Made by a program: the position numbers and the translations under genes
The notes under the pieces: model-generated
What the model was told of the DNA's origin: nothing
Database searches by the model: none
What the model saw: only the letters and a program-made list of their open reading frames with translations
Origin: Nereocystis luetkeana
Taxonomy: Eukaryota > Sar > Phaeophyceae > Laminariales > Laminariaceae
Direction: 5' to 3'
Assembly (NCBI GenBank): GCA_031213475.1
Contig: JARUPZ010000019.1
Location: forward strand, 3,684,770-3,748,769
Length of the DNA stretch: 64,000 nt
Shown: positions 927 to 59,602 of the stretch, piece after piece
Layout: every line of letters starts with the position of its first letter
Numbering within the stretch: the stretch's first letter is position 1

Positions 927-3596
927 ATGACTGCTGTTCCCAGCGTGCTGGAAGGGGGCATCGCTCTACACCTCTCGCCTGCCGACGTGAATGTGGCGGT
1001 TCGTATCGTGGAAAGGTTGGCACTGCAGGCGCCCTCGAAGTCGCTCGGTTACGGTGGCAGCAGCAGCGGTGGTAGCAGTCGACGCAGCATTAGCGGTGGC
1101 GGCGACAAGCCAGGGCCACCAGCCGCGACGTACTGGCCGTCAATGCCCGTTCCGCATCTCGAAGACGCAGCGTTCGGGTTCGCGGGGGACAGTCTGACGT
1201 CGTTACGCACAGCTACGAGTCAGCTTTTGGCCATTCAAGCAATAGATGCGGCCAGGGCGGCGGCAGCGGCTACGGCTGAGACGGGTGATTCGGCAGGTGA
1301 AGGGGCAAGTAGTGTTGGCCCCGCTGCCGGAGACCATGGGGCACGCTTGGCTTCTTCGCTTGGACGGGAGTCTCTGCAACTGGACGGTGGCCTGCGGTCC
1401 GGGGCGCCGGCAGGGACGGGTGCGGTTGGAACCAAGCCGTCTCTCTGCCTGGTGGCGGGGGATGCGCTAGGCGCGAGACTGCTGGGGTGGTGCACGGTGG
1501 CGTGTCGGTCGCCGCAGTGGCGCGGGTTGTTCTCGGGGCGTGGTCTGGCGTCGCCTGCTTCGCAGGCGGCGGCGGCGGGGGAGGTGGCGGAACCGTCACC
1601 GGTTGGCGGAGGCGGCGCAACCGGGGCTAGCGCGGGCACGAAACGAACCGCGCAAGACATGGATGAGGCTTCTGCGGTAACGATGGCGAAGGGCGAGGAG
1701 CCCGGGCGAAGTGAAGAGCCGTCGGTGCCCGCTGGGGATCCCATGGACCACGACGACGAGACTTGCCGCCCGGATAGCGGCGACGAAGGTCGACGAGGGG
1801 GAATGGAGCCCGAGACGCAGAGCGACGATGGCGGAAAGACGCCGCCGGGCATGACGCAGCTTCTATGCGTTGTCGGCCAGATCGTGCACGCCGTCCAAGA
1901 GCACAGCATAGCCCTCGCGGCGGCGCGGGAGCGTGCGGGCGGGGTCATTTTTTTTCCGGGCCGAGTGGGCGGCGCGCGGGGCTTCGACGTTCGCGCTCGG
2001 GAATCGTCCGGCGCGGTGCAGGCCCTCGTCGGAGCCCTGGCCGACGCGGTGTTGGACGTGTTCTCGGACCATATGGCCGACCCGGCTCTTCACTGTCAGC
2101 TTCGTCGAGATGCTGCCAAAGCCGCGACAACGACGGCAATATCGGGTGCAACGCCGATATCAGACGTGGTTCCGCTTGTGGATGGCGCTTCGCCCGCGGA
2201 GACGGTGGGTCTGAGCGTTGAGCTCGTGGGCGACATGGCGTGGCTATTCTCTTCGCTCGAGCCGGAGGCAGGCGCGGGTAGCGCGGACGGCTCCGGCGGG
2301 GGGGCTGAACGGGGATCTGCCGAGAAGACCGCCCCCTCGGCCCCCCTGCTGTCGTCTGCGCTGTCGTGCTGGGTCGCGGGACGCCTGCTCGCGTGCATGC
2401 CGGGGCGAAGCCAGTTGAACTATGCCTTGGGGCTTGTACCTTCTGCAGTATCGGGCGCGGGTGCTTCCCTTGAGGGCTCCGGCGCGCCTCCTATGCGTCC
2501 CCTTCCTACTAGGCTCGCGTGCTTTGCTGTGAGCACCCTCGTGGAAAATGTGCGCGCTGCGATCGAGAAGAGCTTCGAAGACACCGAGTCTGGTGCGCTG
2601 CTTAAAACGGAGGAGTCAACCGCGGCATTCGCGTGCGCCGGGCGTACGACGCCCTTGTACCGTATCGCTCTCATCACGGAGCAAATGCCGGCGTGGCGCG
2701 ACAGGCGGCGGCAACGGCAGCGTCGGCCGGCGCAACCGCTCGTTGGCCCGGAACCCCGCGCGGAAAGCATAGAGGCCGTAGGCGCGGTAGACGCGGTAGG
2801 CGTCGCAGGCATGGCAGGCACCGCAGGTGCCGCCGTTTACAACGAAGCTGAGGCGACTTCGGCGGCTGGGCTCGCCGCGGCCACTGAGGTGCTTGATGTC
2901 CTCGTCGCACTTCTGTGCAGCGCGGCGGAGCATGACCGCCTTGGCGCGACCCGACGAGGGCACGCCGAAGCCGCGGGCGCTCAACGTAGGCCAACGAGGT
3001 ACACCGTGGGGTCCGTAGGCTCCCTGATCGGACCGGCCCTGCACGCGATGTCCAAGCTTCTTGACCACTCGGGTTCGACTCTGGCCTTCGGCGACGAAGG
3101 GTCAAGCCAGACCAGTTCGTCCTCGGCTCGACCGGCTTTGATGGGCCGGGCGAAAAAGCGCCGCGGGTCGTCGCCCGGCCGCGCTGGCGGTAGCGTACAC
3201 ACGCCGTCTCCCGCTTCCGCAGCCGCTGAAGTGAGATGGGCTGCTCTCGCAGGGCTGCGGTCTCCGTCGTGTTTGGACCGTGTTCACATTGCTGGTATGC
3301 TTCTGGCGTGGGAACCTTGGCACCCGTGGATGGGTAGGGTTTCGGGGGCAGCAGAGGCGTCGGCGGCTGGAAAGGCGTCTTCGCTCTCCGCTAAGCATTC
3401 GCGGAGTTGGCAGACGTTCATGTCTCTAGCGAGTCTGGTTGCGCAGGCATGCATCTCGCCCAGGCCACGACCTCCGCCGGGTATGGGTCTGACGGCGCTC
3501 GTAATGCAAACCGTGGTGTCTTTTAGGGCAGTGGGCGGTAGCCCTGTGGCCCCCGTGCGGTTCTTGGATATGCCCGCGGTCCTGTTTCTCTGCAAG
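927..3596 (+). CDS. UBR4: UBR4 exon 1 (residues 1-890)
   Basis: This encodes the N-terminal alpha-helical region, interrupted by Gly/Ser/Ala and acidic linkers (around 1050-1120 and 1560-1830). LGWCTVACRSPQW resembles the LGAWCLLNS helix of animal UBR4. The donor is CTGCAAG|GTGAGG, phase 0. The ORF runs on to 3716 but that part is intron. The 5' limit is uncertain: ATG 927, or an acceptor TTCCCAG|C at 944 with earlier exons upstream. Confidence 0.75.
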
Positions 3597-6500
3597 GTGA
3601 GGGTTGCACAAGGGACGGCAGGGTGTTGGCGCGTGGTGGATGTATCTTACGATTCGGTGGCGGTGTCAAACGGTCCGCACCTTGTCGCGTTCCGCGATTT
3701 GACTCCGTCGTGAGAGGCACGTTGGAGTGAGACAGTCCACGATATCTACAGCCGGGCAGACTTCAACACGACGTATGGGTCTTTTTGCGTGTGGGCGAGG
3801 CCCTGCTGACCCGGATATATGTCAAACTTCGCTCCTTACCTTTGCCAAGCTCTTTCCTCTATGGGTATTTGGGAATGGCGCTGTACGAATCTCGCCTGGT
3901 CTTTTAGTTGGCAGATCCGGTAAATCCTTGCACGACACTATTGTAGTATCAGTATCGCTGTAGCGTTGATTTGAGCTGTTATGAAGGGCTTTTTGTCTGA
4001 TTCATCGGTTGTGCTGCTCCTGCGCTTCATCCTGTATATTTTGTGTCCCTCATCCTCATATACCCGGTGATGTTCCATTCGAACTTGAGGGTATTGGCGC
4101 ACAACAATTTTTCTGTACTGTAGCTTTTAGTCGGTCGGCCCGCAATTTGTCCCCCATCTATTTATCGTTTTTTTTTTCATATCACGAACCGGAAAACTGT
4201 TGCAATATTGCCCTTCTTGACGAGCGATAGTGCTGGTACCCGGGTTGGGGGATACTGACCTGAGACCGTCTTGCTCGATGTCTCCGCATTGACGCTGTCA
4301 CAGGTCGAGAATTTCCTTTCCGCATCCAAGGCAACAGAGGACAAGGACTCTACCAAGCGCATGTCCCACCTTCTGTGGGAGCGCTTTTTGGCGGTGGGCC
4401 AGTCTCACACTCTCGCGTATGAGTGGGGGACGGCTGGCGGCAGCGGCGGTGGTTCCGCGACCGGACAGGGGGAGCCAGGGGCGCGCGACGGAGCCGCAGC
4501 GGCCGCCCCGCAGAGCAGTTTCCCGCCTCGCAATGCCATCTTCCGCCACCACGCCCAGCTTTTAGCCAATGCTTATTACCAGCAGGACGCGCAGGCCCGA
4601 CGCACCTTGCTCGCGGCGCACTTGGAGCTCATTCGTAAGCTGGGGGCTATCGTGGTTACCGAGGAACCGTCGGCGGAGGAAGGCTCGTCCATCCTGCGGC
4701 GTGTTCCTCCCCCGCATAGCCTCCAGCTTCTCCTCGCTCAGTGCATGGTTCTCGCGGAGTTCATGCTCCGCACCCTCCACGACAGCGATCGGTCCCTGTC
4801 GTTGGCTGGGCGGCTCAGCAGCGACCTGGCGCGCCTGCCGGAGCTTCCTGCTGTTGCAGGTGGCCTAGACGCCAGCGTCGGTGTCACCTCAAGAGCGGCC
4901 GAGCAGCGCTCCCGCTATCTGTCGGTTTTCGAGGCCGACGAGGAGGCCGGTGTGATGGCCTGGCACGAGCGGCCTGGGGCGGCCCGCGCGAGCAGTCGGG
5001 CTCTGTTCTCGGAAATTTCTCCCACAGGGTATGTTGGGTGGCACGAGGCGTGGCTCAGCGTGCTGACGGCGGCGGCGGCGTCGACCTCCGAGGACGCGGA
5101 GTACCTGTTTTTCTGCGCTTGGAGGCTGCTTGGCACGTTACCCCCAGAGCAGCTGTCTCATGGGGGCGAAGTTGAAGGGGAAGGTGGCGATGAACCGCCC
5201 GCAAGGAGCGTAGCCCGCCTGGGGCCTGGCGTGGGGGGTATGGCGCAACTGCGCTCCTGTTTGTTGGGCTTGCAGACGAATGTCGGGGAGTGGGGCCTCC
5301 TATCTCCTTCTTTCTCGGCGGCTCTTTCCACGATGCGCGAGGGGGCGCCGGGATGGTTTCAGGTCGAAGCGCGGGAACTGGCGGAGGCCATGGGCGGCGG
5401 GGCTACTCGGACGACGTCCCAGAGCGATACGCTAGCGCGCCAGCTGCGCGTCCACGGCCTGGTGGAAGCGTTTGCAGTGTACGCTCGTGCTGCCTTAGCA
5501 TCGGCCGCGGAGCAAGGAAGCGGGTTGATAGGTGGCTCCGACAACCTAGATGTCACGGAGGGCCGCGGCTCCTCCTCCTCGGAAGACCGAGGTCATCCCA
5601 CGTCCGAAGGTGGTGGCCGGGCGGGCCGTGGAAGTGATAAGCTTGTAGAGCTGTCGCTTGGGCTTGTTCGGTTGGCGGAAGAGTGCTTCCGCTACTACCA
5701 TCGAACGATCGAGGGCGCTCTGGCCGCACTCCATGTCGTCGGGGAGCGCGAACAGCTCGGCGAGAGCCCCAATCGGGGTGTACGGGGCTCGGTCGATGAG
5801 ACTGACGCTTCTGGTCTGGGCCGCGGCCGTGCAGGAGCTGGCGCCGGTAGCTACCGAGCAGAGGACGGAGACGCCGCGGCTTTGGCGCAGATTCCGGCGG
5901 AGCTTGCGGTGCCAATTGCGCTGCTGGTCCAGTGCCATACGCTGTCTACGTCGTTAAGCCGGCTGACGTGGCTGGGCTGCGACCTCTACCTCGTGGGGGG
6001 GCTCCATTCCGAGCTCAACTACCCCGGCGAGGAGACAATGCTGGAGAAGCTGTCCCCGTGGCACAGAAAGGCGTGCACCCGCTCAACCTCGCGGCGCTCT
6101 CAGTGTGCCAGCAAAGCGTCGGCCCCCTTCGCAGAATCGGACGAGCTCTGGCCGGAGACGGGGGCCAGGAGCAGGGATGCCGGTAGCGGGCCGCGCAGAG
6201 GGAGAGATGCACGCTTGCCGCAGAAGTGGGAGGTCATGATCACCGGCGCAGCGTGGCTCACGATGGCGTCTACGCAAGCACTAGACGTTGCCGCCACCAA
6301 ATTTGCCCGTGGCGCCCAGGCCTCGGTTGTGGCGCGGACAAGTGGCGGTGCCAAGGCGGATAATGAAATTGCGAACGTAAGCGATGGCGACGCGGTTCTT
6401 GCGGCGCAAAACGTAGATGGGGTGGTGGACTGCGCCTCCAGGCTTTCCGTCTCGGCGAGGTCTATGCTCAACGCGGTCTTGCTCAGTCTGTCGGCGCTCA

Positions 6501-14142: not shown

Positions 14143-14174
<32 letters not shown>

Positions 14175-39096: not shown

Positions 39097-39139
<43 letters not shown>

Positions 39140-44288: not shown

Positions 44289-44366
<78 letters not shown>

Positions 44367-53300: not shown

Positions 53301-56300
53301 ACCGCTCGTATCCGCTCCGCTTTTCTTCCGTCCGCCCATCCGTCCATCCGTCCGTCCTACTGCTGCAAGGTTGGGCTTCTGGCGGAGACCCTGCTGGAAG
53401 CGGCGACGCAGGATAATGCCTTCACTGGCGGCGAGGTGTCGCGGCTCCGGAGGGAGACCCGCGCCTTCAAGAGCAAGTTGGCGCAGGCGCGGAGGGAGCG
53501 AGCGCTCAAGGCTATGGGCGTCGGGCCGACCAGCGCCTCGTCTCCTTCCGGGGCGGTGACGGCGCTGCCGGTGCTCGGAGCGGGGGCTGGGTCAGAGGTG
53601 TGTGTCTTCGTGTGTGTGTGTGTGTTTTTTTTTCTCTCTTGCGGTCGTATCGGCTTGGTTCTCGCGGGTGTGTGTGTGTTCTTGTCGTGGGGTTATATCG
53701 GCTTGTTTGTCGGCCGGTAGACCGACTTGTTGGGGCGGGAGGTGGGAGGCTCTGCCTTGGTGTAGCTATTCGCGGAATGGTACGTATGGTTAATGGTTTC
53801 GCGCTTGCGGTAGGTGGCATTGGGTGTGTAAAGCGGACACACGGGTAGCTAATCATAGCTGGAGGCTGAAACCCGAAGCCGGAAGCCTCGCCACCTAAGC
53901 GTTTGTTCCGCTTACTATGTCACGATTTGTTGTATTTTTATGGCGTTTTTATTTAGTTCATTTTTTCCCCCCAACATAACGCGATACTACAGTAGTGGTA
54001 CTTGTATACCTGGTATCATGCATATGTACCAGTATTCAATTTTCCAAAAACATTCGCTTTTTTTTTTCGCGCACACAGACGGCCGCGAGCGGCACCTCAA
54101 CCGCCGCCGGATCACCAGCCGCGGGGGGCGCAGTTCCTGAGGCCCCTCTAGTGAGCGGCAACTCGGCGGCCGCACGGGCGAAGGCGATGGCGGCTTCGGC
54201 GGCACGGCCTGCGAGCACTCCGGCGTGGATGTCCGAGATGATGGAACTGGAGGAGGAGACGGGACTGACTTGTATGGTCTGTCACGAAGGGTACAGGTGC
54301 AAGGTACGCGAACAACTCTCGGGGAGTCGTTTTTTTTTCTTCCTGGTGTGACAAAAAGGCGGTTGTTTTTACGCTTTTACTACTACACGTACCGGGCACC
54401 CTCATGCCGTGAAGTACCTTGCATACTATTAATACCTGGTCCAAGTGTATCCTGGTATACTATGCCAGGTATTTACGTAGACGTAGTCTACAGAGTATGC
54501 ATGTGTGTACCTGATGTGTTTTTGGAAACGGTGTCGCGACGTTTGGTTAGGCGCTCCGTACCTTTTTTTCGCGAGGTGCCGGGCCTGAAGCGCGAAGTTA
54601 TGAGCGAACAAGACACGCCACCTCTCGTATCCACGGCCTAGTCGACCGACCCGACGCTCCAAACCCCCGCGATGTTTATCCTCAACTCCCGCGCGCGCGG
54701 GCGCTGCCCTCCTCAACGCTCGTCCGTATCGTGCTTGACCGGCCCTTGACCGAAAGCAAAACGGACAATTTCAGCACATCTTATGCGTGCGCTTTCCCCC
54801 TCAACGCCCGCCGCTATATGCCCTGCTTGTCCTTGCGGTCTTGTACGCGTTGACCTTCGCCTGATGTTAAGGGCCGTTTCGTCTTCCATTTTTTCCCTCC
54901 CTCAACGGCTCTTTACGTTGCCGTTCAGAGTGGTACCCTACAGTAGTAGTACAGGGCAGCAGTAATAGTTGTACAGATTATTTACTTCTACTTTGAAAAC
55001 CAGCACTAAGAAAAGCCAAGGCTGATATTTATTGCAGGAAAAAAAAGCATTTCGGGACACGTGCAGTTGTTAATAGTGTAGAACGCGCCCATTCTTGGTT
55101 CTTTTGAAACTGCAGTCCCGTTTTTGGGGACAAACTACTTGTACTTGGAGTGGTCTGTCCCCAAAACGGGACTGCGGTCCGAAAGGGGCTATGTTTTTCT
55201 TTCTTGACTTGAGATATCTACGTACGTACGTAGCCTGGACCCAGCTACGTACATGTATTCCCTGTTTCTTACTTACCAGGTGCCCTGTGCGGTACCGTAC
55301 CGCGAATGCATTTTGTTGATGTTATTGTTGGTGTTGTTGTTGTTGTTGTCGTCGTTGTTGTGTTGATATTGATGAAGCGTTAGCATCAACTGCCGACTGC
55401 CGACGTGAGCCATAGTCTTGAACGTAACTGAGGGGTTCTTATTTCCAGATCGCCCGCGATAAAAACGGCGTTATTTGTTCTTGTTCTTCGGCAGCCGCAC
55501 TCCGTCCTCGGAGTTTACGTCTACGCAAAGCCCATCTTGGGCAAGGATCTCCCCGAGCAGGAAGGCGATTTCCTTCTCGACCCCGCCGACCTCCCGAACA
55601 GTGGGGGTGCCGAGCCCGGAGGAGAAGGAGGTGGTGGCGGTGGCGGAGAGGGGGGCGGCGGGGAGGTGTTCTATGGGGACGAGTCCGGAGGGTCAGAGGT
55701 GCGTGTGTTAATATCTTAGGGCCGGTGGTCTGCCGTTTCGCAGTGTTTTTTTGCACCGGTGGAACAGTCGAAGGTCTGGGTTCTATCTATATATCTAGCT
55801 ATCTGTCTATCCATCAGATATCTAGCCATTTGCTCACATCATCTATCCCGAAACCCAACCCTGGTAGCTTTGTGTTTACCTACTGCTGTACCTGGTACAG
55901 TTTTGGGTAAAAATTTCTCGAGTAAGTATGCCCCGTCACCCTTCATTCGACTCGCTATTCGCCGAACACCTCACGGCGCTTCTCGCTTGGTGCTTTATAG
56001 CGATGTCTGCCTGGTCGGTGAAAGCCCAGCGTGCTCCGTCCCGGCATTGTAGGAATGCGAAGGTCTATGGTCATACAAGTACGACATGCATTGGAATGAG
56101 CACATCCCCCCCCCCCCCCCCCCCCCCCGCGAATGCCTCGGCTTACTATTGACAACCCCCCCCTCCCAGGATGACGACGGCGAAGGCGACAGCGGCATGG
56201 ACGCCTCGCAGGGCCTTGACCGACTCGTCGGCATCGTCGCATCCCGGGCAATGGCAGCCGGAGGCGATGTCGGCAGCGCCCACGCCCTAGGTAGCCGCGC

Positions 56301-59300
56301 TCGTGCTCATGCGGATGCCGTGGTGGCCCTCGAAAGATGCTGTCGTGGGGAAGGGAGAGGCGGAGGAGGAGGAGGAGGAGGAGGAGGAGGCGGGGGGGGT
56401 GGGGGGGGCGGAGCGTTGGTGTCGACAGTTTCGCCTTTTAACGTAATTCACGTGGCGTGCCACCATGAGGCGGCGCGTGCGGACAGGAGCATGCGCGTGC
56501 CGAAGACGGAGTGGGAGGGGGCCACCCTGAGGAACTCGAGGGTGGCCTGCAATAGCCTGTTGCCGCTGCGGTCGCCGACGACATCGAGTGAGAGGTACCA
56601 GTCGGGGCTGGACCGGCACATGGCGAACCTCGGGGAGGTGAGGAGCGAAGCTTTGGGTTGGTCCCTTGCCGTCATGATTTGAGCCATGATATGAGGAGAT
56701 TTACTGTTGTTGTTGTTGTTGTTGTTGTTGTCGTTGTTGTTGTTTTCGTTTTCGTATGTTGTTGATAGTTTGTTTCTCGTTTTATACACGCAACCCCTGT
56801 CTTGCAACTGAACCCCATATTTTCGGGAACAAACTATCTACTTGGAACGAGAGTTGAGAGCGTTTCGCAATACTAGCGCAAACGTGGTCGATATCCGCCT
56901 TCCCCCAAGCCCCCGTAGACCAGGCAGGTATCGTTTTTTTTTTGTTCCAGCCCTACGTGGTTGGAAGACGGCCTACTAGGAGTATTTAGGCAGCATATTC
57001 GTGCGAGAGTGTTTTGTTGTATTCACGATGATCGTTGTCACAAAGTTTCCGGTATCGATCGACGACCCGCCGTGTGTGCGATGAGGACTGTGCACACCTT
57101 TTCGCCTTGGCCCAGCTTCTGGACGAAACGGTTAGAATAACACTTGACTTTTCAGCTCTTTCAGAACCGCGCTGTACAGGACTTTTTAGCTTATTTAGAA
57201 CCGCACTATTGTACAGAAACCTGAATCTGAGTGATAGTTCCAAGTCTTTTCGTCCCCACAACCGGAGCGCGCCCCTGCACGGGTTAGAAGCCCTGACCCC
57301 GAACACCAAAAAAAGGCCTCCCAATGGAGATGTGTCGGGGGCGTTCTAGTGTGAATCCATTTTGTTTGAAGCTGGGGGACAGGTCGTCGTAAATTATTTC
57401 TACAACTGTTGTAGTAGTAGTGTGCACTATCGTCCATTCTGTCTACGCTCGGACAAAAAAAATGACACAGCTGCCATGATACCGCGTGCGACCGGCGTCC
57501 GTGCCTGCGTGTCTTCTCCCCCCCAGGCGCTGCAAGGGCAAGGCATGGCACCCCGCCTGCCGCTGGTGCTCGAGGATGTGCGGCTTCTCCTGCTGAGGCT
57601 CGCGCACCAGGAGAGCCTTTCCGTCGACTGTGGAGGGGGTGCTTCTCGGAGCAACGTGCAGCTTATTCCGTATCAGATGCAGGTGTGTTACATAATCTAC
57701 TAAAGTGCATGACTGGTGTCGTTTATTTTCATGAACGAAGTCTATCGCCACGCAAAAATCAACTTCCCGGACCGAGCTTCGTGGTGGATTGCTGTATTGC
57801 TATTTGTTCGGTGTCATGTCCTCCGGCGGTAAATCCACGCGTGCGGAGACGAGTTGAAACGCGCCAATAAGTTCGCAAGAGGATTCTTCCGCGCGTCCAA
57901 CTGCTTTTCCATTCCCAAAACTACAGTAATTGGGATTCGAGTGGTATATACCTGGTTCCTGGTGTGTTTTTTGCAGTCGTGTAGCGTTTTTTTTTTCTGA
58001 AGAACGCTTTCTTTTATCACCGGCGCTCTCGTATCCTCCTTTTGCCTTGCTTGCCTTGCTTGCCTTGCTTGCCTTGCTTGCCTTGCTTGCCTTGCTTGCC
58101 TGGCTTGCTCCTGCTTGCGGTTGCCGCACACACGCGTGACAGGTGGCCGCTCACCTCGCGAAACGGGGCGGCTCGGCGTCGAACTCCGGACAGGCGCACC
58201 GGCTACGGACCATCTGCTCCGAGTTCGTCGAAACGTGCCGCTTTGCCGAGGGCTACGTGGAGCACGGTCGCGACGGTGCCGAGCCCGGAGGCGCTGTTGG
58301 GAGTGGGAGTGGTGGTGGTGTGGCCGCGGACGGCGTGCTTGGCCGCCTCCACGAATGCGCCGGTTTCGTCGCCGTCCTGGCGCTCCTGCTGCTGCCGCGG
58401 GACGAGTGGGAGGAATGCAAGCGTTACATTGTGGTGAGCGGCGTCATCCTTTGAGAATAGGTCCGGTTTTGTTTTTAGGAACCAGGGCCAGCGCTAGAGT
58501 CTGTTTTGTTACCACGTTTCTTTTTTGTCGCTGTCGTTGTCTGTTGGTCAGGTCGTTGTCGTCGTCGACGACGGCCGATTATTGTTGTTGTTTTTTTAGA
58601 ACCGAGGCCAGCGATCGATTTTGTTGTTTTGCTGTCTCGCTGTTTTTTTTTCTTTTTTTTGTCGTTTTCGTTGTCGTTGCACAACTTCTCGCTCATCCTT
58701 TTTTGTTCGTGTGTTTCTCTCCTGCTCTCTCTCTCTCTCTCTCTCTCTGTTATCGTGCTCGTTTCTCTCGTGCGTGTGCGTTCGTGTGCGTGCGTGTGCA
58801 GGAACAAATGATCCGTCATGCCGGCTCGCGCAAGGCCCGAGGCGTGGAAGGTTCGGGCGTGGAGGGTCGTGGGGGACGGAGACGCTCTCGCTCCTTCGCG
58901 GGGCCCGGCGGCAGCCCGCGCGTCTCGGCTTCCAGTCCTTCGCAACAAGGCGGTAGCACAGGCGCAGCGAGCGCCGGCAAGCGCAAACGGTCCCCGAGCA
59001 TCGTTGTCTCTTCTGGGACGGGTGTGGGCTCCTCATCCGAAGCGCGCATGGAGAAGGGAGAGAAGGGGGTGGCGGCGGCGGCGGCGGCGGCAGCGGCTGA
59101 GGAACAGGAGGACGAAGAGGCGGCGGCGGAGCGCGAGCGACAGGCAGAAGAGGAGCGCGAGGCCGAGGTTTCGGCCGCTCGCCCGGCACTGGTTTTCTGC
59201 CGCGTTGTGGACGCGATGCAGTCCGCGCTCAAGCCGAGGCAGGATGTCGCCGTGGCCGCCGCCGCCGCCGCGACCGGGGGGCAGGAAGCGACAGTCCTGG

Positions 59301-59602
59301 AAATTTTCTTGTCCGGCGGGGATGATCTCCTCCTGGCGGCAAGCCGTGCGGCGCACGAGGCGTACGAGCGCGCCATCAGGCCGGTGGGTAGTGGCGGGGG
59401 GGTGGTGGAGGTTCTCCGAGCGATGGGGTTGGAGCGAGCGTTCGCCCGGTGGGCGTGGCGGGGCGAGGAGCGGAAGGAGAAGGGGGGGAAGGGGAAGCAG
59501 AGGGGGGAGAAGGAGGTGGCGTCCGCTTGCCGCGAGCGCGTGATGAACCTGCTTTGCGAGGGAGATTTGCTTGCTGTCGCCGGCTATCGCACCTCGGCGT
59601 GA
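927..59602 (+). CDS. UBR4: UBR4/BIG orthologue, giant N-recognin E3 ubiquitin ligase (spliced, 42 exons)
   Basis: The family binds N-degrons through its UBR box and ubiquitinates targets through a C-terminal zinc module; the plant member BIG acts in auxin transport and hormone signalling. Seen here: a UBR box (residues ~2172-2227), a propeller-like segment, a ZZ finger (~4438-4474), an SSIK/NLYY/IEFADF-like beta-sandwich block with CPRC and CRQC zinc pairs, the EFFRGS-KNP and GNIVGLD blocks, a hemi-RING LTCMVCHEGY, the partner FNVIHVACHH, and a helical C-terminus ending in TGA. The conceptual product is about 9,334 residues, nearly twice the usual 5,100-5,200; the excess is Ala/Gly/Ser/Pro-rich insertion between conserved blocks. 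All 41 introns are GT..AG and keep frame. The start ATG 927 has a weak context (T at -3), and an acceptor at 943/944 is an alternative, so the N-terminus is uncertain. Family assignment is very secure; individual boundaries less so. Confidence 0.95.
4304..9652 (+). CDS. UBR4: UBR4 exon 2 (residues 891-2673), carries the UBR box
   Basis: At 5,349 bases this is the longest exon. It begins after GTCACAG and ends GTACAG|GTGGGA, phase 0 at both ends. It encodes helical repeats including YLFFCAWRLLGTLPPEQ, which matches YYFLILWRILGILPPS of animal UBR4, then the UBR box, and a propeller-like segment near the end (HLAVWGLRQCCVIVLNSRG). Ala-rich (8700-8760) and Gly-rich (9355-9400) runs sit between conserved blocks. 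The last 74 codons of the open frame are intronic. Confidence 0.9.
8147..8312 (+). other. UBR4: UBR-box zinc finger (N-degron binding), residues ~2172-2227
   Basis: The spacing of CTF, QHWYHCYTC, CRLCVRVCHRGHDV and FFCDCGSG is the UBR4/BIG type of UBR box, with all Cys and His zinc ligands I can place intact. In plant BIG a CxCLKPR motif follows the box almost at once. Here the equivalent, KCDCLKAR, lies at 8495-8518 after about 60 inserted residues rich in Pro, Ser, Ala and Gly. Confidence 0.93.
10315..10449 (+). CDS. UBR4: UBR4 exon 3 (residues 2674-2718)
   Basis: This 45-codon exon lies between CGCGCAG and GTACTGG, phase 0 at both ends. It ends CVLKAIWVPRSQ, which matches the KAVWLPGSQ strand of the propeller-like region. 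Joining it to exon 4 restores KAIWVPRSQ-VLLAAVCTQFIRVYDL, the equivalent of the animal block ending VKIYDL. Confidence 0.88.
10490..10540 (+). repeat. 520-bp repeat, terminal fragment, intron 3
   Basis: G-rich sequence, GTGTACTCATGTCATGCATG, then GCCGTAGTCG and a G-rich stretch. Confidence 0.65.
10908..11079 (+). mobile_element. tRNA-derived SINE, 5'-truncated copy, intron 3
   Basis: It matches the body of the other two copies from CGCGAGTCGAC to the A-rich tail but lacks the tRNA-like head, with about a quarter of sites changed. 5' truncation is typical of retroposition. Confidence 0.78.
11300..12742 (+). CDS. UBR4: UBR4 exon 4 (residues 2719-3199)
   Basis: It starts VLLAAVCTQFIRVYDLSTDA, the propeller-like block of the family, and continues with repetitive Gly-rich (11745-11860) and Ala-rich (12100-12175) insertions. 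Conserved strands include CIRDVELVPS and CLLVVARGGKSTLAL. The acceptor is GCCGCAG and the donor AATCCG|GTAAGC. Phase 0 at both ends. Confidence 0.87.
13301..14563 (+). CDS. UBR4: UBR4 exon 5 (residues 3200-3620)
   Basis: It opens AELELQHLKWPRRS and contains VTPVLMVLFDNGSVQCY, equivalent to the ILLCEDGSLRIY strand of animal UBR4. A Gly run (13540-13580), an Ala/Glu helix and a polyproline tract (14138-14185) interrupt it. The acceptor is AAACGCAG and the donor CCTCAG|GTGAGG, phase 0. Confidence 0.87.
15242..15328 (+). CDS. UBR4: UBR4 exon 6 (residues 3621-3649)
   Basis: A 29-codon exon between TTCGGCAG and GAG|GTGAGA, phase 0, encoding a Ser/Pro/Ala-rich linker. It is predicted from its strong splice signals and preserved frame rather than from conserved residues, so it is less certain than its neighbours. 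Confidence 0.62.
15487..15583. mobile_element. Short inverted-repeat element (MITE-like), copy A, intron 6
   Basis: Left arm ATAACCCTTTTAGAACTACA then GTCCCGATGTGGGGACAAA; right arm is its imperfect reverse complement ending GGGACTGCGGTACTATAAGG. It folds into a hairpin of about 97 bases. Confidence 0.78.
15711..15875. repeat. Degenerate GATCTGTAT / GATCTGAAA minisatellite, intron 6
   Basis: Units of about 9-20 bases such as GATCTGTATGATCTGAAA repeat imperfectly. Confidence 0.8.
16087..16173 (+). CDS. UBR4: UBR4 exon 7 (residues 3650-3678)
   Basis: A 29-codon exon between GAGCAG and CCCAG|GTGGGG, phase 0. It encodes IFESLENVTSDPRLSYCG, equivalent to the PIDFFE segment that precedes the first beta-sandwich of UBR4. 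Confidence 0.8.
16441..16518 (+). repeat. 520-bp repeat, terminal fragment, intron 7
   Basis: A G-run followed by GTACTCGATAGGAGAGAGAT and CTCATGCATGGCCGTAGTCG, then a second G-run. It is the left end only. Confidence 0.75.
16751..16873 (+). CDS. UBR4: UBR4 exon 8 (residues 3679-3719)
   Basis: A 41-codon exon between CAAACCTAG and GTGCAG|GTGAGG, phase 0. VRSKLSRDTQGYLITPR and LRIAAVRVQ match the IKHRLNSTGMYVANTK and MTGMRIQIG strands of UBR4, which begin the first beta-sandwich-like domain. Confidence 0.9.
17874..18009 (+). CDS. UBR4: UBR4 exon 9 (residues 3720-3764 and a split codon)
   Basis: It encodes LGQASVDHIPRELRIMGRT and KWYDLPLTEQE, matching the IERAPSYIEIFGRT and RWFDFPFTREE blocks. 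The acceptor is GCACAG and the donor GTCG|GTGAGC, phase 1; the split Gly codon is completed by exon 10. Confidence 0.92.
18281..20487 (+). CDS. UBR4: UBR4 exon 10 (residues 3765-4500), carries the ZZ finger
   Basis: It opens with VVVSVSSCHDGSNHPLIDVL, equivalent to the FIGASVDP..MIDAVKIYG block. It then runs through a helical region (LLRQLGDSALSVLRK, LVRRFWESCVWR) and Ser/Gly/Ala linkers to a ZZ zinc finger near its end. The acceptor is CGTACAG and the donor GTACAG|GTGAGG, phase 1 in and phase 0 out. Confidence 0.9.
20299..20409 (+). other. UBR4: ZZ-type zinc finger, residues ~4438-4474
   Basis: The order CYRCDGC, HHCLVC, FDLCPQCY and CHG gives the C-x2-C ... C-x2-C ... C-x2-C ... H pattern of a ZZ domain. 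It sits between the beta-sandwich and the acidic linker, as in plant BIG. From memory, the human protein has no annotated ZZ at this point. Confidence 0.9.
21100..21898 (+). CDS. UBR4: UBR4 exon 11 (residues 4501-4766 and a split codon), acidic
   Basis: Codons at about 21325-21530 encode an almost uninterrupted Glu/Asp run, and 21700-21740 a second one. Animal UBR4 also has an acidic Ser-rich linker near here. The exon ends with the conserved-looking helix ELSSKLFPLLVERLPEVL. The acceptor is CTACAACAG and the donor TTCAG|GTGACA, phase 1. Confidence 0.85.
22583..22748 (-). repeat. 520-bp repeat, partial copy (reverse), intron 11
   Basis: CGCGCTTGGTGCAAGCA, GCCGGTGAAAAC and GTACGACTACGGCC blocks are flanked by poly-C on the left (22583-22615). 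Confidence 0.75.
23142..23926 (+). CDS. UBR4: UBR4 exon 12 (residues 4767-5028)
   Basis: It completes the split Gly codon and encodes helical segments VSAAVSYLRLLAALV and RLLLVALVKIVAVEA, plus DTVVLCMQTLKFILDWAEQ, equivalent to the YCLHVLKSLLEYW helix of UBR4. Gly/Ala linkers follow. The acceptor is CAGTGTCAG and the donor CAGCTG|GTAAGA, phase 0. Confidence 0.85.
24318..25706 (+). CDS. UBR4: UBR4 exon 13 (residues 5029-5491)
   Basis: It is dominated by Ala/Ser/Gly insertions (24800-24900, 25130-25160, 25470-25560). Better-conserved helices are ACQEVLADAFSSVSLLVSR and LNVILRTPALAVLASVLQL. The acceptor is AATGTCAG and the donor GCGACG|GTAAGA, phase 0. Confidence 0.82.
26106..26393 (+). CDS. 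UBR4: UBR4 exon 14 (residues 5492-5587)
   Basis: A Gln/Glu-rich coiled stretch with an imperfect QEQER repeat (26215-26285) precedes the conserved helix pair WKALLCTLIADRELKPLRYD and AKRLLRRLCVTQ. The latter matches the VRKLLLFICGSKEKY region of UBR4. The acceptor is CGAACAG and the donor CACCCAG|GTGCGT, phase 0. Confidence 0.87.
27037..27306 (+). CDS. UBR4: UBR4 exon 15 (residues 5588-5677)
   Basis: It opens AAYHSVRDSYQFTAELRKVL, equivalent to KYRQLRDLHTLDSHVRGIKK in animal UBR4, followed by a Gly/Ala linker. The acceptor is TTCGAAG|GCG and the donor ACGCAG|GTGGGT, phase 0. Confidence 0.87.
27331..27475. repeat. Degenerate CCTATnnTAGGCTA repeat, intron 15
   Basis: Units containing AGGCTA and CCTAT, spaced 15-30 bases, repeat about six times. 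AT-rich and able to form small hairpins. Confidence 0.7.
28192..29049 (+). CDS. UBR4: UBR4 exon 16 (residues 5678-5963)
   Basis: It opens VALHRSLTSLLHVAEVRPVN and WRKYCASP, matching the LMEHLKACAEIAAQRTINWQ and KFC block. Ala- and Gly-rich linkers separate it from PVCLLFALCEKG and ELLIAQGLVGPDALVKM. The donor CAGAG|GTGTGT is weak, so the 3' edge is less certain. Phase 0. Confidence 0.82.
29775..30320 (+). CDS. UBR4: UBR4 exon 17 (residues 5964-6145)
   Basis: It encodes ERLSPYLPFAARQGSRAKYW, ALSNHPNAGLYAAI and YLELEPCLVC, matching the ILTNHPNSNIYNTL and YLESDPCLVC block of UBR4. It ends YPLDSIKAASKSTENAML; joined to exon 18 this restores the SSIK..VVKLIG strand pair of the second beta-sandwich. 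The acceptor is AACACAG and the donor ATGCTG|GTGAGT, phase 0. Confidence 0.92.
31416..31447. repeat. (ACGT)n microsatellite, intron 17
   Basis: A self-complementary GTAC/ACGT tetranucleotide run of about 32 bases. Confidence 0.9.
31938..32120 (+). repeat. 520-bp repeat, partial diverged copy (forward), intron 17
   Basis: GCATGGGCGTAGTCGTATGA, GCCGGGACGTAGCACATCGG and TCGCATGAAGGGTGA blocks are recognisable with small deletions. Confidence 0.8.
32226..32399 (+). CDS. UBR4: UBR4 exon 18 (residues 6146-6203)
   Basis: VQLKGRFKVRRLSVRIAD and VRTIRLHYHSKPVGSLTD match VVKLIGSHTISKVTVKIG and VRTINLYYNNR of animal UBR4. The exon follows a long poly-C/CT tract (32176-32219) that serves as the polypyrimidine tract. 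The donor is GTGCAC|GTGAGT, phase 0. Confidence 0.94.
32887..33153 (+). CDS. UBR4: UBR4 exon 19 (residues 6204-6292), zinc pairs
   Basis: SAQIDLPLPLTCANIMIEFA matches VKIDLPLPIVASNLMIEFA. After a 30-residue Gly/Ala insert come LHCPRCGRPV, VCRQCGEVAFQCC, the zinc-ribbon-like pairs of the family (LQCPRC, VCGNCGENVYQC). The donor is TGCCAG|GTGGGT, phase 0. Confidence 0.95.
33626..33673 (-). repeat. Partial terminal copy of the 520-bp repeat
   Basis: About 35 bases resembling the left end (ATACGACTA.. GCATGCATGA) followed by a C-run, lying head-to-tail against the full copy at 33674. Confidence 0.65.
33674..34204 (-). repeat. 520-bp G/C-flanked repeat, full copy (reverse), intron 19
   Basis: Near-identical over about 515 bases to copies at 48623 and 40456. 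On the plus strand it runs from TATAGGTTGGGTTGGTGTCG to ATCGAGTA and then a C-run. Poly-C lies at both edges, and the C-run at 34188-34204 lies 153 bases before exon 20. I define forward as reading from GTACTCGAT..GCATGGCCGTAG. Confidence 0.9.
34357..34485 (+). CDS. UBR4: UBR4 exon 20 (residues 6293-6335)
   Basis: It continues the zinc block: CRHINYESLEAFLCVECGYC and SYAHFGFRL match [20 protein letters not shown] and KYARFDFML. The acceptor GTGCCAAG|TGT is preceded by a poly-C tract. The donor is AACGAG|GTGCGA, phase 0. Confidence 0.93.
35682..37952 (+). CDS. UBR4: UBR4 exon 21 (residues 6336-7092), poly-Ala expanded
   Basis: It opens with the helix AELAEANRLADQRIHQARML, equivalent to RKKAVSNINTLLDKADRVYH. 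It contains ASKYPAELVELVDLYCGRCQ, equivalent to NRYILQLAQEYCGDC, and ends QVCCAKCTEE, equivalent to TKCYGCASAV. Between these lie several hundred extra residues dominated by Ala, Gly and Ser runs (36560-36640, 36740-36780, 36930-36990, 37390-37490, 37770-37830). Phase 0 at both ends. Confidence 0.92.
38180..38226. repeat. (ATGCC)n short tandem repeat, intron 21
   Basis: Imperfect CATGTCATGCC then repeated CATGC units. Confidence 0.8.
38872..39090 (+). CDS. UBR4: UBR4 exon 22 (residues 7093-7165)
   Basis: TLSLLLEVVSSTHGWKNSAR and VLREAGLLEQLL match the CITLLRALATNPALRHIL and VSQGLIRELF armadillo-like helices. The acceptor is TGTGAAG and the donor GCCAAG|GTCAGT, phase 0. Confidence 0.91.
39094..39136. 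repeat. (GA)n microsatellite, intron 22
   Basis: About 40 bases of GA directly after the exon 22 donor, followed by a C-run (39168-39184) before exon 23. Confidence 0.9.
39318..40376 (+). CDS. UBR4: UBR4 exon 23 (residues 7166-7518)
   Basis: VNFVLSRHQGLDVRGLLQQD followed by LVLLRALCL matches the VSTALKGHWANPDLASSLQY and EMLLLTD region. HWLLRLITCRQSFVLRRFSG and MVLGELA match NNWLRQVLFTPATQAARQAA and CTIVEALA. Ala- and Gly-rich loops are inserted. The acceptor is CCGGAAG|GTG and the donor TTGCAG|GTGAGA, phase 0. Confidence 0.91.
40456..40960 (+). repeat. 520-bp repeat, full copy (forward), intron 23
   Basis: It starts at a G-run, GTGTACTCATTATC then GCATGGCCGTAG, and ends GCCAACCCAACG. It is more diverged than the 33.7 and 48.6 kb copies. 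It carries an internal TACCAGGTA (40768). Confidence 0.88.
41373..41483 (+). CDS. UBR4: UBR4 exon 24 (residues 7519-7555)
   Basis: A 37-codon exon, ALNLLGRLCS then GRGLRGFLAAAMLQE, matching YLALYQKLI and ARGVLPYVGNLITKE. The acceptor is TGTCGCAG and the donor CAGGAG|GTGCGG, phase 0. Confidence 0.88.
41686..42362 (+). CDS. UBR4: UBR4 exon 25 (residues 7556-7780 and a split codon)
   Basis: ARRLQSES continues the IARLLALEE helix. After a Pro-rich and then Ala/Glu-rich insert it ends HLDHVLEALVRARGIVLPRS, equivalent to VGTVLNGYLCLRKLVVQRTK. A CCCCA repeat (41644-41668) precedes the acceptor CACCCAG. The donor is TCTAG|GTGTGT, phase 2, the only phase-2 intron in the gene. Confidence 0.86.
42682..43186 (+). 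CDS. UBR4: UBR4 exon 26 (residues 7781-7949)
   Basis: It completes the split Ser codon, then AKTLSKARDILQRLAGM (family: LIDETQDMLLEMLEDM). An Ala run (42785-42850) and a Gly loop follow. The exon ends FKLHLRRAPTQE, equivalent to FFVTLEKDPQQE. The acceptor is CTAAACAG and the donor CAGGAG|GTGCGT, phase 0. Confidence 0.9.
43505..43729 (+). CDS. UBR4: UBR4 exon 27 (residues 7950-8024)
   Basis: EFFRGSLSKNPLYSTDI matches DFLQGRMPGNPYSSNE and EFIRGSMTKNPYSSAEI. After a Gly/Ala loop, TMRDMRDKIATDLDM matches LMRDIKNKICQDCDL. This is one of the clearest family signatures. The acceptor is TGTGCAG and the donor GAAGCG|GTGCGT, phase 0. Confidence 0.95.
44287..44364. repeat. (CTGC)n microsatellite before exon 28
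   Basis: About 18 tandem CTGC units end 36 bases upstream of the exon 28 acceptor. Confidence 0.92.
44401..44538 (+). CDS. UBR4: UBR4 exon 28 (residues 8025-8070)
   Basis: LLELIVCGNIVGLDIPVRVV and QHEVWR match MELLVNNKIISLDLPVAEVY and KKVW. A (CTGC)n tract ends 36 bases before the acceptor and provides the pyrimidine tract. The donor is GCGGAG|GTGTGT, phase 0. Confidence 0.94.
45094..45240 (+). CDS. UBR4: UBR4 exon 29 (residues 8071-8119)
   Basis: MTVTYRLAGVDGEATEEVVD matches [20 protein letters not shown], followed by an Asp/Glu-rich turn and FGIARDIAE, equivalent to YKMAGVMAQ. The acceptor is GTGCCAG. The donor GCTGAG|GTCGGT is weak but required for frame, phase 0. Confidence 0.92.
45317..45400 (+). 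pseudogene. Decayed partial copy of UBR4 exon 31 in intron 29
   Basis: About 85 bases match the end of intron 30 and the start of exon 31 (47243-47320), including CGGCTG.T.GAGGTGCTGCA and CAGGGGAGCC, and the frame would read GTLFHRLLEVLHRGA. The acceptor CGCCAG|G of the real exon is CGCCGGG here, so it cannot be spliced in the same way. The copy then passes into a GGT/GGC tract and ends beside the 447-bp MITE. Confidence 0.85.
45457..45903. mobile_element. 447-bp foldback/MITE-like element, intron 29
   Basis: It is bounded by ATTGGAATTGTCGGGACAAC and its reverse complement GTTGTCCCGACAATTCCAAT. The inverted similarity continues inward for roughly 100 bases (GACCGCCCAT / ATGGACGGTC; AAGCAAGGCAAGGAGTTATC / GATAACCCCTTGCCTTGCT). 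No transposase is present, so it is non-autonomous. I could not identify a clear target-site duplication. Confidence 0.82.
46461..46679 (+). CDS. UBR4: UBR4 exon 30 (residues 8120-8192)
   Basis: EGGLPLLLCLAQ matches CGGLECMLNRLAG. After an Ala/Gly loop, FASAVRLLRRACMLSANRSD and LLSLK match LLTVLLKLFSYCVKVKVNRQ and QLVKLE. The acceptor is CTTTTGCAG and the donor CTCAAG|GTGTGG, phase 0. Confidence 0.92.
47266..47469 (+). CDS. UBR4: UBR4 exon 31 (residues 8193-8260)
   Basis: GTLLHRLLEVLHRGA matches NTLNVMLGTLNLAL and GVVGDLLAMMEQLGQ matches VAEQVLSIMEIILDE. A (GGT)n tract (47319-47380) encodes about 19 Gly residues between them. A decayed copy of the 5' part lies in intron 29. The acceptor is TGCGCCAG and the donor GGACAG|GTGCGG, phase 0. 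Confidence 0.92.
47763..48246 (-). repeat. 520-bp repeat, near-full copy (reverse), intron 31
   Basis: It lacks the outermost bases at one end. Its C-rich terminus ends about 44 bases before exon 32 and probably supplies its pyrimidine tract. Confidence 0.88.
48291..48533 (+). CDS. UBR4: UBR4 exon 32 (residues 8261-8341)
   Basis: An acidic, Gly-rich linker with two MDV motifs ends HVSFLFEALE, equivalent to QLVMLLDQI. The acceptor GTAAAAAG|GAC has a poor immediate pyrimidine tract; the C-rich end of an inverted repeat copy (to 48246) and the bases after it lie just upstream and may substitute. The donor is CTAGAG|GTACGA, phase 0. Confidence 0.8.
48623..49159 (-). repeat. 520-bp repeat, full copy (reverse), intron 32
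   Basis: Very similar to the 33.7 kb copy, with poly-C at both edges, which suggests a recent shared origin. Confidence 0.9.
49743..49868 (+). CDS. UBR4: UBR4 exon 33 (residues 8342-8383)
   Basis: ALIDVLGSTPALAQAVSRLL then PFLTYGRKAAAGLLADKF matches SNPSVLQGLLRIIPYL and SFGEVEKMQILVERFKPY. The acceptor is GCAACGCAG and the donor GTCCAG|GTTTGT, phase 0. Confidence 0.92.
50230..50347. mobile_element. Second short inverted-repeat element, intron 33
   Basis: TTGCGGGGGACCATAGTAAA is the near-perfect reverse complement of the right arm ending ACTATGGTCCCCCGTAA, with an AT-rich loop of about 55 bases. Likely a different MITE family from the 15.5/55.1 kb pair. Confidence 0.7.
50502..50676 (+). CDS. 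UBR4: UBR4 exon 34 (residues 8384-8441 and a split codon)
   Basis: VVQWDAVVADALEELAGGKK and RSGKVIRECLMEKG, equivalent to FLDCFCKIAAGIKNN and QLKDLILQKG. The acceptor is TACCGCAG and the donor GAAAG|GTGCGC, phase 1. Confidence 0.91.
50906..51186 (-). repeat. 520-bp repeat, partial copy (reverse), intron 34
   Basis: It contains only the half from CTACACCGGAAATTAAATCA to the poly-C terminus. Confidence 0.87.
51472..51779 (+). CDS. UBR4: UBR4 exon 35 (residues 8442-8544)
   Basis: It completes the split Gly codon with FLEVAVAFVLQ (family: ITQNALDYMKKH). After a Gly/Ser loop, WKAYFKRPGLPAALKMLAGL matches WKKFLSRPALPFILRLLRGL, and QALLAERGLLERLHWME matches QVLIGTDSIPNLHKLEQ. The acceptor is ACTTTCAG and the donor GGAGAG|GTGAGG, phase 0. 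The frame stays open 15 codons past the donor, then TAA. Confidence 0.92.
51981..52815 (+). repeat. 520-bp repeat (forward) interrupted by a SINE, intron 35
   Basis: The left end (51981-52020, ..GCATGGCC) and the rest (52352-52815, ATGGCCGTAG..) are separated by a SINE. ATGGCC is present on both sides as a target-site duplication. Confidence 0.9.
52021..52351 (+). mobile_element. tRNA-derived SINE, full copy, intron 35
   Basis: The head has pol III box A-like TGGTTCAAGTGG and box B-like GGGTTTGAGCCC, then a unique body (ATTCAATGCGAGTCGACGAG ... AGAAGATG) and a short A-tail. It is flanked by ATGGCC on both sides. No coding capacity. It inserted into an older copy of the 520-bp repeat. Confidence 0.88.
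52820..53080 (+). repeat. 520-bp repeat, partial copy (forward), intron 35
   Basis: It begins immediately after the truncated end of the previous copy, so the two form a head-to-tail pair. It ends near AGACAGCAATGGG. Confidence 0.85.
53370..53597 (+). CDS. UBR4: UBR4 exon 36 (residues 8545-8620)
   Basis: VGLLAETLLEAATQD then VSRLRRETRAFKSKLAQARR and ALKAMGV matches GTLAENLLEALREH, IDAARRETRAEKKRMAMAMR and ALGTLGM, the basic helix before the catalytic module. The acceptor is TGCTGCAAG and the donor TCAGAG|GTGTGT, phase 0. Confidence 0.93.
54079..54303 (+). CDS. UBR4: UBR4 exon 37 (residues 8621-8695), start of hemi-RING
   Basis: After an Ala/Ser/Gly linker, MSEMMELEEETGLTCMVCHE and GYRCK match the LLKQMEELIEEPGLTCCICR and EGYKFQ start of the UBR4 hemi-RING. 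C8685 and C8688 form the visible Cys-x2-Cys pair. The acceptor is CACACAG and the donor TGCAAG|GTACGC, phase 0, so an intron splits the zinc module. Confidence 0.95.
55098..55188. mobile_element. Short inverted-repeat element (MITE-like), copy B, intron 37
   Basis: Same core as the 15.5 kb copy: GCAGTCCCGTTTTTGGGGAC paired with GTCCCCAAAACGGGACTGC across a 25-base loop. The outer ends have diverged. Confidence 0.78.
55495..55698 (+). CDS. UBR4: UBR4 exon 38 (residues 8696-8763)
   Basis: PHSVLGVYVYAKPILGKD matches PTKVLGIYTFTKRVALEE directly after the hemi-RING Cys pair. The rest is acidic and Gly-rich. The acceptor is TTCGGCAG and the donor TCAGAG|GTGCGT, phase 0. Confidence 0.93.
55935..56128 (-). 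repeat. 520-bp repeat, partial copy (reverse), intron 38
   Basis: It retains the last 170 bases and the C-run, which ends about 40 bases before exon 39. Confidence 0.82.
56170..56637 (+). CDS. UBR4: UBR4 exon 39 (residues 8764-8919)
   Basis: An acidic start and a long Gly run (56355-56410) precede VSTVSPFNVIHVACHHEAAR, equivalent to YSTVSHFNIVHYDCHLAAVR, then WEGATLRNSRVACNSLLPL, equivalent to WESAALQNANTKCNGLLPV. The acceptor is CTCCCAG and the donor GGGGAG|GTGAGG, phase 0. Confidence 0.94.
56702..56755. repeat. (GTT)n microsatellite, intron 39
   Basis: An imperfect GTT run of about 54 bases, 65 bases past the exon 39 donor. Confidence 0.88.
57527..57682 (+). CDS. UBR4: UBR4 exon 40 (residues 8920-8971)
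   Basis: LVLEDVRLLLLRLAHQESLS and SRSNVQLIPYQMQ match LNIHDIKLLFLRFAMEQSFS and RESNIHLIPYIIH. The acceptor is CCCCCAG and the donor ATGCAG|GTGTGT, phase 0. Confidence 0.95.
58043..58105. repeat. 9-bp TTGCCTTGC tandem repeat before exon 41
   Basis: Seven near-perfect 9-base units end about 38 bases before the exon 41 acceptor. They are pyrimidine-rich on the plus strand. Confidence 0.88.
58143..58433 (+). CDS. UBR4: UBR4 exon 41 (residues 8972-9068)
   Basis: FVAVLALLLLPRDEWEECKR matches YFTVLALHILPPEQWRATRV. A Gly-rich loop is inserted before it. A 9-bp repeat (58043-58105) lies shortly upstream of the acceptor GTGACAG. The donor is ATTGTG|GTGAGC, phase 0. Confidence 0.94.
58720..58747. repeat. 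(CT)n microsatellite before exon 42
   Basis: A CT run of about 28 bases within the pyrimidine-rich 3' half of intron 41. Confidence 0.88.
58802..59602 (+). CDS. UBR4: UBR4 exon 42, last coding exon (residues 9069-9334)
   Basis: After a basic Ser/Arg/Gly stretch and an Ala/Glu helix it encodes RPALVFCRVVDAMQSALKP, equivalent to SSLLFWALVDLIYNMFKKV. The helical C-terminus SRAAHEAYERAIRPVGS (family: YEAADKALKTFQEEFMPV) follows, and the exon ends LAVAGYRTSA then TGA. A CT microsatellite (58720-58747) lies upstream of the acceptor TGTGCAG. Confidence 0.93.
   Translation, partial: EQMIRHAGSRKARGVEGSGVEGRGGRRRSRSFAGPGGSPRVSASSPSQQGGSTGAASAGKRKRSPSIVVSSGTGVGSSSEARMEKGEKGVAAAAAAAAAEEQEDEEAAAERERQAEEEREAEVSAARPALVFCRVVDAMQSALKPRQDVAVAAAAAATGGQEATVLEIFLSGGDDLLLAASRAAHEAYERAIRPVGSGGGVVEVLRAMGLERAFARWAWRGEERKEKGGKGKQRGEKEVASACRERVMNLLCEGDLLAVAGYRTSA

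Follow-up and report, generated by a model that had tools for sequence, protein, structure and literature searches.

The window analysed here, a stretch of 64,000 nucleotides of Nereocystis luetkeana DNA (contig JARUPZ010000019.1 of assembly GCA_031213475.1, positions 3,684,770 to 3,748,769 of the forward strand), very probably holds one intact-looking gene of the UBR4/BIG family, the sole copy detected, whose predicted product of about 9,300 residues carries translated filler mainly outside the conserved blocks. The core gene model runs from 927 to 59602 on the + strand and has 41 exons and 9,290 residues, with a predicted product mass of about 935 kDa. It is apparently an ordinary, functional UBR4/BIG ligase gene in the form of an extreme size variant. 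Chief among the new points are an internal ZZ zinc finger in a further UBR4 and a catalytic zinc finger, the hemiRING, that is split by a long loop.

Six stretches of the predicted protein match solved UBR4/BIG chains in the PDB, in family order, and on these alignments chance is excluded as the source of the six ordered matches to Arabidopsis BIG. The UBR box and the start of the propeller match BIG at 5e-29, the propeller at 8.1e-12, beta-sandwich 1 with the ZZ at 1.7e-14, the C-terminal scaffold stretch at 5.9e-23 (query stripped of some low-complexity stretches) and the C-terminal part including the hemiRING at 3.7e-54. Beta-sandwich 2 with the zinc fingers matches a human UBR4 fragment at 4.5e-40 and BIG at 1.2e-39. 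For the UBR box BIG is the best domain (1.7e-22), with human UBR4 UBR-box chains at 3.1e-18 and 3.7e-18; the Pfam family zf-UBR reaches 1.5e-4 and 22.2 bits, under its cut-off of 25.2. Structure-chain alignments place the beta-propeller, the two beta-sandwiches and the paired zinc fingers in family order, and the landmarks follow one another as UBR box, propeller, beta-sandwich 1, internal ZZ, beta-sandwich 2 and zinc fingers, C-terminal scaffold, PF13764 region, hemiRING and UZI.

Pfam was scanned on ten large exons and three joined pieces, in which ZZ and E3_UbLigase_R4 (PF13764) alone pass their cut-offs, the latter at 4.2e-94 and 3.8e-24 (316.7 and 85.3 bits; cut-off 23). The piece with beta-sandwich 2 and the zinc fingers gave no Pfam family over cut-off. 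Weak matches, such as those to PRIMA1, CENP-B_dimeris and zinc ribbons, all under cut-offs, were rejected, and the C-terminal protein piece found no relative among viral contigs. Across the whole assembly (465,085,209 bases in 1,987 contigs) all five PF13764 matches fall within the gene, which is therefore the only copy detected. Stretches aligned to BIG contain 21 of the 40 exon junctions, 5 of them in weakly scoring blocks and 16 elsewhere, and the BIG alignment is gap-free over the junctions of the two largest introns, 30321-32225 (1,905 base pairs, bp) and 51780-53369 (1,590 bp).

The gene was rebuilt with a self-written, splice-aware dynamic-programming parser (start 927, stop 59602, GT-AG introns) that scores a frame-specific order-3 coding model against non-coding sequence, with splice weights re-estimated. 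The exon list of the preliminary description of this DNA was not used. Homology-free, self-trained parses seeded with seven long open frames gave 9,972, 9,439, 9,282 and 9,127 codons including the stop, in 91, 55, 44 and 40 exons, at intron penalties of -6, -9, -12 and -15; a nearly unpenalised parse was overfitted, with 283 exons, and was discarded. Three-frame reading of the gaps recovered conserved peptides that the parser had missed, and a parse with 15 such peptides pinned gave 45 exons and 9,427 residues, identically at all three penalties. Exons 17276-17395, 30731-30791 and 30994-31136 were dropped from it because BIG aligns gap-free over the direct junction, and exon 15242-15328 (29 residues), without homology support, was left out of the core model; the alternative that includes it has 42 exons and 9,319 residues. 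The preliminary description had proposed a UBR4/BIG orthologue with the family landmarks in order, in a single gene of 42 exons and about 9,334 codons. The independent rebuilding comes close to these figures, at 41-42 exons and 9,290-9,319 residues. Orthology is borne out by PF13764 and the six ordered BIG/UBR4 matches, the order equals that of BIG, and the BIG-aligned junctions and sole PF13764 copy uphold a single gene.

The core model is free of internal stops, partly by construction. Its 40 introns have a median length of 666.5 bp (range 202-1,905 bp) and are 52% GC, against about 68% in the coding sequence. Phase 0 introns number 36 of the 40, a strong phase bias, and 30 of the 40 are preceded by CAG, GAG or AAG. 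The start at 927 and the stop at 59602 are plausible, because there is no coding-like segment scoring at least 18 in the 9 kb upstream and none scoring at least 15 in 59603-64000. Rfam (at gathering scores) and ARAGORN found nothing in the window. The exons and domains are listed below, all on the + strand; "pinned" denotes the parse with 15 peptides, "PDB" a match to solved UBR4/BIG chains, and "block-trained" the four parses trained on the aligned blocks.

927..3596: exon 1, residues 1-890, N-terminal region (homology-free and pinned; 3231-3596 dropped by two of four block-trained)
4331..9652: exon 2, residues 891-2664, N-terminal scaffold, UBR box and beta-propeller start; 1,774 stop-free codons (pinned, PDB)
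8144..8314: UBR box, residue 2162 onward, inside exon 2 (PDB; Pfam zf-UBR below cut-off)
10315..10449: exon 3, beta-propeller (pinned, PDB)
11300..12742: exon 4, beta-propeller and Ala/Gly-rich insert (pinned, PDB; 12347-12493 dropped by all four block-trained)
13301..14563: exon 5, insert with a Pro15 run (pinned; 14106-14200 and 14310-14563 dropped by all four block-trained)
15242..15328: doubtful extra exon, 29 residues, outside the core model (homology-free and pinned parses; no homology)
16084..16173: exon 6 (pinned; dropped by one of four block-trained)
16751..16885: exon 7, beta-sandwich 1, DOC-like (pinned, PDB)
17874..18009: exon 8, beta-sandwich 1, DOC-like (pinned, PDB)
18281..20487: exon 9, end of beta-sandwich 1, scaffold, insert, internal ZZ (pinned, PDB, Pfam)
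20296..20424: internal ZZ zinc finger of plant-BIG type, residue 4404 onward, inside exon 9 (Pfam, PDB)
21100..21898: exon 10, Glu-rich insert (pinned)
23142..23926: exon 11 (pinned)
24318..25706: exon 12, Ala/Gly-rich insert (pinned)
26106..26393: exon 13 (pinned, PDB)
27037..27306: exon 14 (pinned, PDB)
28192..29049: exon 15 (pinned, PDB)
29775..30320: exon 16, beta-sandwich 2 start (pinned, PDB)
32226..32399: exon 17, beta-sandwich 2 (pinned, PDB)
32887..33153: exon 18, beta-sandwich 2 and first zinc finger (pinned, PDB)
34357..34485: exon 19, second zinc finger, Cys-rich domain (pinned, PDB)
35682..37952: exon 20; 35796-37952 is 719 codons outside aligned blocks (pinned, PDB, frame test)
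38872..39090: exon 21 (pinned; PDB alignment weak, 4.8 bits)
39318..40376: exon 22 (pinned, PDB)
41373..41483: exon 23 (pinned)
41686..42362: exon 24, insert (pinned, PDB)
42682..43186: exon 25 (pinned, PDB)
43505..43729: exon 26 (pinned, PDB)
44401..44538: exon 27, with exon 28 what we take to be the ubiquitin-like domain region (pinned, PDB, Pfam)
45094..45240: exon 28 (pinned, PDB, Pfam)
46461..46679: exon 29 (pinned, PDB)
47299..47469: exon 30, poly-Gly, acceptor uncertain, 5' end within a duplicated piece (pinned, frame test)
48291..48533: exon 31 (pinned)
49743..49868: exon 32 (pinned, PDB)
50502..50676: exon 33 (pinned, PDB)
51472..51779: exon 34 (pinned, PDB)
53370..53597: exon 35, region ahead of the hemiRING (pinned, PDB)
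54079..54303: exon 36, with the Cys-x2-Cys half of the hemiRING at its end (pinned, PDB)
55495..55698: exon 37, hemiRING strand, then insert (pinned, PDB, splice-pair ranking)
56170..56637: exon 38, insert with Gly18, then the His-x2-Cys half of the hemiRING at 56422-56568 (pinned, PDB, splice-pair ranking)
57527..57682: exon 39, UZI (pinned, PDB)
58143..58433: exon 40, UZI (pinned, PDB)
58802..59602: exon 41, C-terminus and stop (pinned; no UBR4 match in PDB)

Blocks were counted against Arabidopsis BIG, whose native length we take to be 5,098 residues. The 17 aligned blocks add up to 1,619 residues, against 1,479 in BIG; 15 of them differ from BIG by -6 to +2 residues, one by +22 and one by +121. 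Outside the blocks lie 7,671 residues against 3,619 in BIG, an excess of 4,052. All 18 intervals between or around the blocks are longer than in BIG, the biggest gains being those after the ZZ (+728), before beta-sandwich 1 (+652), after the zinc fingers (+623) and before the UBR box (+598). One of the expanded intervals takes in the region of the calmodulin-binding helix and the KCMF1 pin site. Low-complexity residues outside the blocks number 3,646, and the remaining 5,644 are near the family size. These low-complexity inserts contain 3.1% F, W, Y, I and M, against 9.4% in the blocks, and are more disorder-like. The excess had been placed in linkers beforehand, and the 4,052 additional residues outside the blocks agree with this. 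That conserved blocks keep their usual size is true of 15 of the 17 and untrue of the blocks at +22 and +121 and of the hemiRING, which 123 extra residues split. "Nearly twice the family size" was right as to a large excess; the precise ratio is about 1.8-fold.

Are the inserts translated? Or does part of the excess consist of introns that escaped recognition? In 27 inter-block segments (7,428 codons) the coding frame has no in-frame stop, against 144 and 149 in the other sense frames. With a codon model trained on the blocks, the coding frame is best in 24 of the 27 segments among the three sense frames and in 23 among all six; of 173 windows of 40 codons, 120 favour it, where chance would give one third. 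Synonymous codon choice scores 0.086 bits per codon in the low-complexity inserts, 0.24-0.27 in the blocks and -0.37 in introns; this test was kept as an intron contrast alone because it is not frame-specific. Parses with a coding model from the blocks only, and with introns down to 60 bp permitted, keep 8,762, 8,981, 8,968 and 9,025 residues at penalties of -8, -10, -12 and -14. By these measures the inserts look coding.

The hemiRING retains its C2HC ligands, the equivalents of human Cys4838, Cys4841, His4887 and Cys4890 (structure-chain alignments, numbering counted by hand). The equivalents of Glu4843, Tyr4856, Asn4884 and Asn4911 are the same residue as in human, that of Gln4910 is Arg, as in Arabidopsis, and that of Asn4913 is Arg. 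According to PMC10873205, the four ligands bind zinc in human UBR4, Glu4843 touches the E2, and mutation of Asn4913 was without effect. The Cys-x2-Cys and His-x2-Cys pairs, 49 residues apart in human, are separated by 172 here, owing to an acidic, Gly-rich stretch that is encoded by exons 37 and 38 and includes a run of 18 Gly. Among 125 stop-free pairs that keep the frame, the splice pair flanking this insert ranks first, scoring 14.9 where the runner-up scores 12.8. It is a tentative idea, with a small chance of being right, that a hemiRING split by 123 translated residues still works and that the long linkers form a disordered layer in or around the ring which alters substrate access.

The internal ZZ scores 2.9e-6 and 27.4 bits in Pfam (cut-off 21.4) and matches BIG ZZ chains at 1.2e-7 and 1.8e-7. 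CDGC is followed by Asp here and by Ser in BIG. PMC7618180 describes the ZZ as internal in BIG and carried by KCMF1 in human, and reports a contact between the N-terminal Arg and a Ser in the ZZ of BIG, KCMF1 having Leu at the corresponding residue. We infer that this Ser is the one after CDGC. The ZZ here could still read type-1 N-degrons. An intron-blind six-frame search of the 465-Mb assembly for zf-Di19 (PF05605, 54 positions), a mark of KCMF1/DI19, scored 13 candidates and gave no match at E <= 0.001.

Sizes were compared with solved chains that are full-length or near it, of 3,861 to 5,205 residues. Arabidopsis BIG (AtUBR4; PDB 9qt9 chain A) has the domain order, internal ZZ, hemiRING and UZI in common with the gene described here. 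It is the top match in five of the six stretches and, for beta-sandwich 2, the best full-length chain just behind the human fragment; BIG has about 5,100 residues, against about 9,290 here, and a short loop between the hemiRING halves. Human UBR4 (SIFI; PDB 9nwd, 5,183 residues) shares the UBR box, propeller, beta-sandwich 2 with zinc fingers, hemiRING and UZI, but its linkers are shorter, as is the ligand distance, and its ZZ is on KCMF1 rather than internal (PMC7618180). The UBR box and C-terminal blocks of Caenorhabditis elegans UBR4 (PDB 9qx1, 4,284 residues) match those here, yet it is under half the size, and that paper describes calmodulin as absent from its complex. A literature search for algal or giant BIG returned a passing mention in a red-alga paper and no paper on algal UBR4 among the matches listed; absence from print is not claimed.

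By homology, the ligase would act like plant and animal UBR4, as a ring-shaped dimer in which the UBR box and internal ZZ read N-degrons and the hemiRING extends K48 ubiquitin chains with an E2 of UBE2A/UBC2 type. The excess would be Ala-, Gly- and Ser-rich filler, translated as disordered linkers that loop out of the scaffold, one of them inside the hemiRING; it may have grown by GC-rich codon-repeat expansion, neutrally tolerated. A scan of 218 kb of flanking DNA gave 18 coding-like segments, with low-complexity shares of 0.03-1.00 (about 0.33 when weighted by length) against 0.47 for this gene; the coding model used was trained on this Ala/Gly-rich gene and favours such segments, and some of the 18 are perhaps not genes. 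Low-complexity coding is thus probably not peculiar to UBR4. Since coding-like segments nearby also contain low-complexity stretches, a genome-wide and mostly neutral tendency may lie behind the growth.

TOR was taken as a size control, and the start of its FRB domain was found (3.2e-9; L031:8831-8926). The next coding-like segment (L031:9644-9943) is Ala/Gly-rich, and Pfam matched nothing there; we take its end to resemble the end of FRB. A TOR-like protein with an Ala/Gly-rich insert, as another conserved protein so expanded, is only suggestive. A second FRB fragment, with an internal stop, lies in L029 (G000:C11:12256773-12256844) and is perhaps a piece of a TOR pseudogene.

Several observations weigh against reading the window as one gene with translated filler. 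The block-trained parses drop 375-660 codons (1,125-1,980 bases) of the core model, and all four remove 4950-5027, 12347-12493, 14106-14200 and 14310-14563. Both splice scores are acceptable in three of the nine short candidate introns at penalty -10 (1297-1413, 4950-5027 and 14106-14200), and also in a 932-bp candidate at the end of exon 5, 14310-15241. These cuts, like the lower synonymous bias of the inserts, speak for a UBR4/BIG gene in which part of the excess is unrecognised GC-rich introns in large exons and the product is well under 9,000 residues. We consider this unlikely. At penalty -10, nine of the ten removed pieces of at least 60 bases sit in candidate introns 61-147 bp long, whereas no accepted intron is below 202 bp, and six of these nine have a splice score under the accepted minimum; the parse that removes most still retains 8,762 residues; frame statistics favour the coding frame over most inter-block segments; and accepted introns are less GC-rich than the coding sequence. 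The block-trained test is itself not fully independent, as the blocks received a bonus and both the splice weights and the intron model were taken from the core model; the zero stops in the coding frame are in part a product of the parser. Three segments score better in another sense frame, namely exon 30 and, in exons 37 and 38, two poly-Gly segments, so that the hemiRING insert itself fails the frame test. The synonymous score separates inserts from introns, not the coding frame from others. Translation of the inserts is judged by sequence statistics. Six of the 17 blocks, one from the propeller and five from the scaffold, align weakly when taken singly (-0.8 to 12.9 bits) and were used because their positions fall in order. 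The structure comparison covered the exons other than 5, 10-12, 30 and 31; in it exon 1 (890 residues) had no PDB match at E up to 1, and exon 41 had no UBR4 match, its best being unrelated at 0.0064. The genome-wide tendency rests on a single neighbourhood, scanned with a model that favours Ala and Gly.

The inserts might also be both translated and functional, the long Ala/Gly-rich loops providing the ring with a surface for regulation or substrate binding, and the one in the hemiRING tuning E2 engagement. This is compatible with one gene carrying translated filler, except that the growth would not be neutral, and it draws on the first rank of the hemiRING-flanking splice pair and on the favoured coding frame; low complexity is seen in other nearby coding-like segments too, however, and the hemiRING insert prefers another frame in the codon test, which makes such a function distinctly improbable. 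The poor match to solved structures of the part ahead of the UBR box could point to two or more separate genes, but the UBR box and the 1,269 codons preceding it share one unbroken exon 2 and the BIG alignments cross the two largest introns without a gap, so that we regard a division as very unlikely. A decaying or misassembled copy, to which the many interspersed repeats in the introns might point, is the hardest to credit: the model has no internal stop (in part by construction), the copy is the sole one detected and keeps its catalytic residues, and the source contig spans 10.8 Mb.

The introns repeatedly contain copies, 78-95% identical and up to about 550 bp long, of one interspersed repeat family (best 45 of 59 matches). 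Its copies lie at the following positions.

33662-34204, 40425-40968, 47763-48268, 48605-49163, 50904-51187, 52352-52814, 52823-53083, 55959-56128: intronic repeat copies
near 16433, 22623 and 31974: shorter intronic repeat copies

A shared 20-mer of this repeat had no match in viral or GTDB contigs. A separate piece is duplicated at 45320-45413 and 47246-47339 (84% identical). The 5' end of exon 30 (47299) falls within the second copy, and therefore part of the exon may be repeat-derived or its acceptor wrong.

The gene described here places an internal ZZ in a UBR4 beyond the Arabidopsis case described in PMC7618180, which bears on whether the ZZ belongs to UBR4 or to a cofactor. If the inserts are translated, the gene shows what load of filler a ubiquitin-ligase ring of about 1 MDa tolerates with its conserved blocks kept, and it would be a natural experiment on which UBR4 loops can grow freely.

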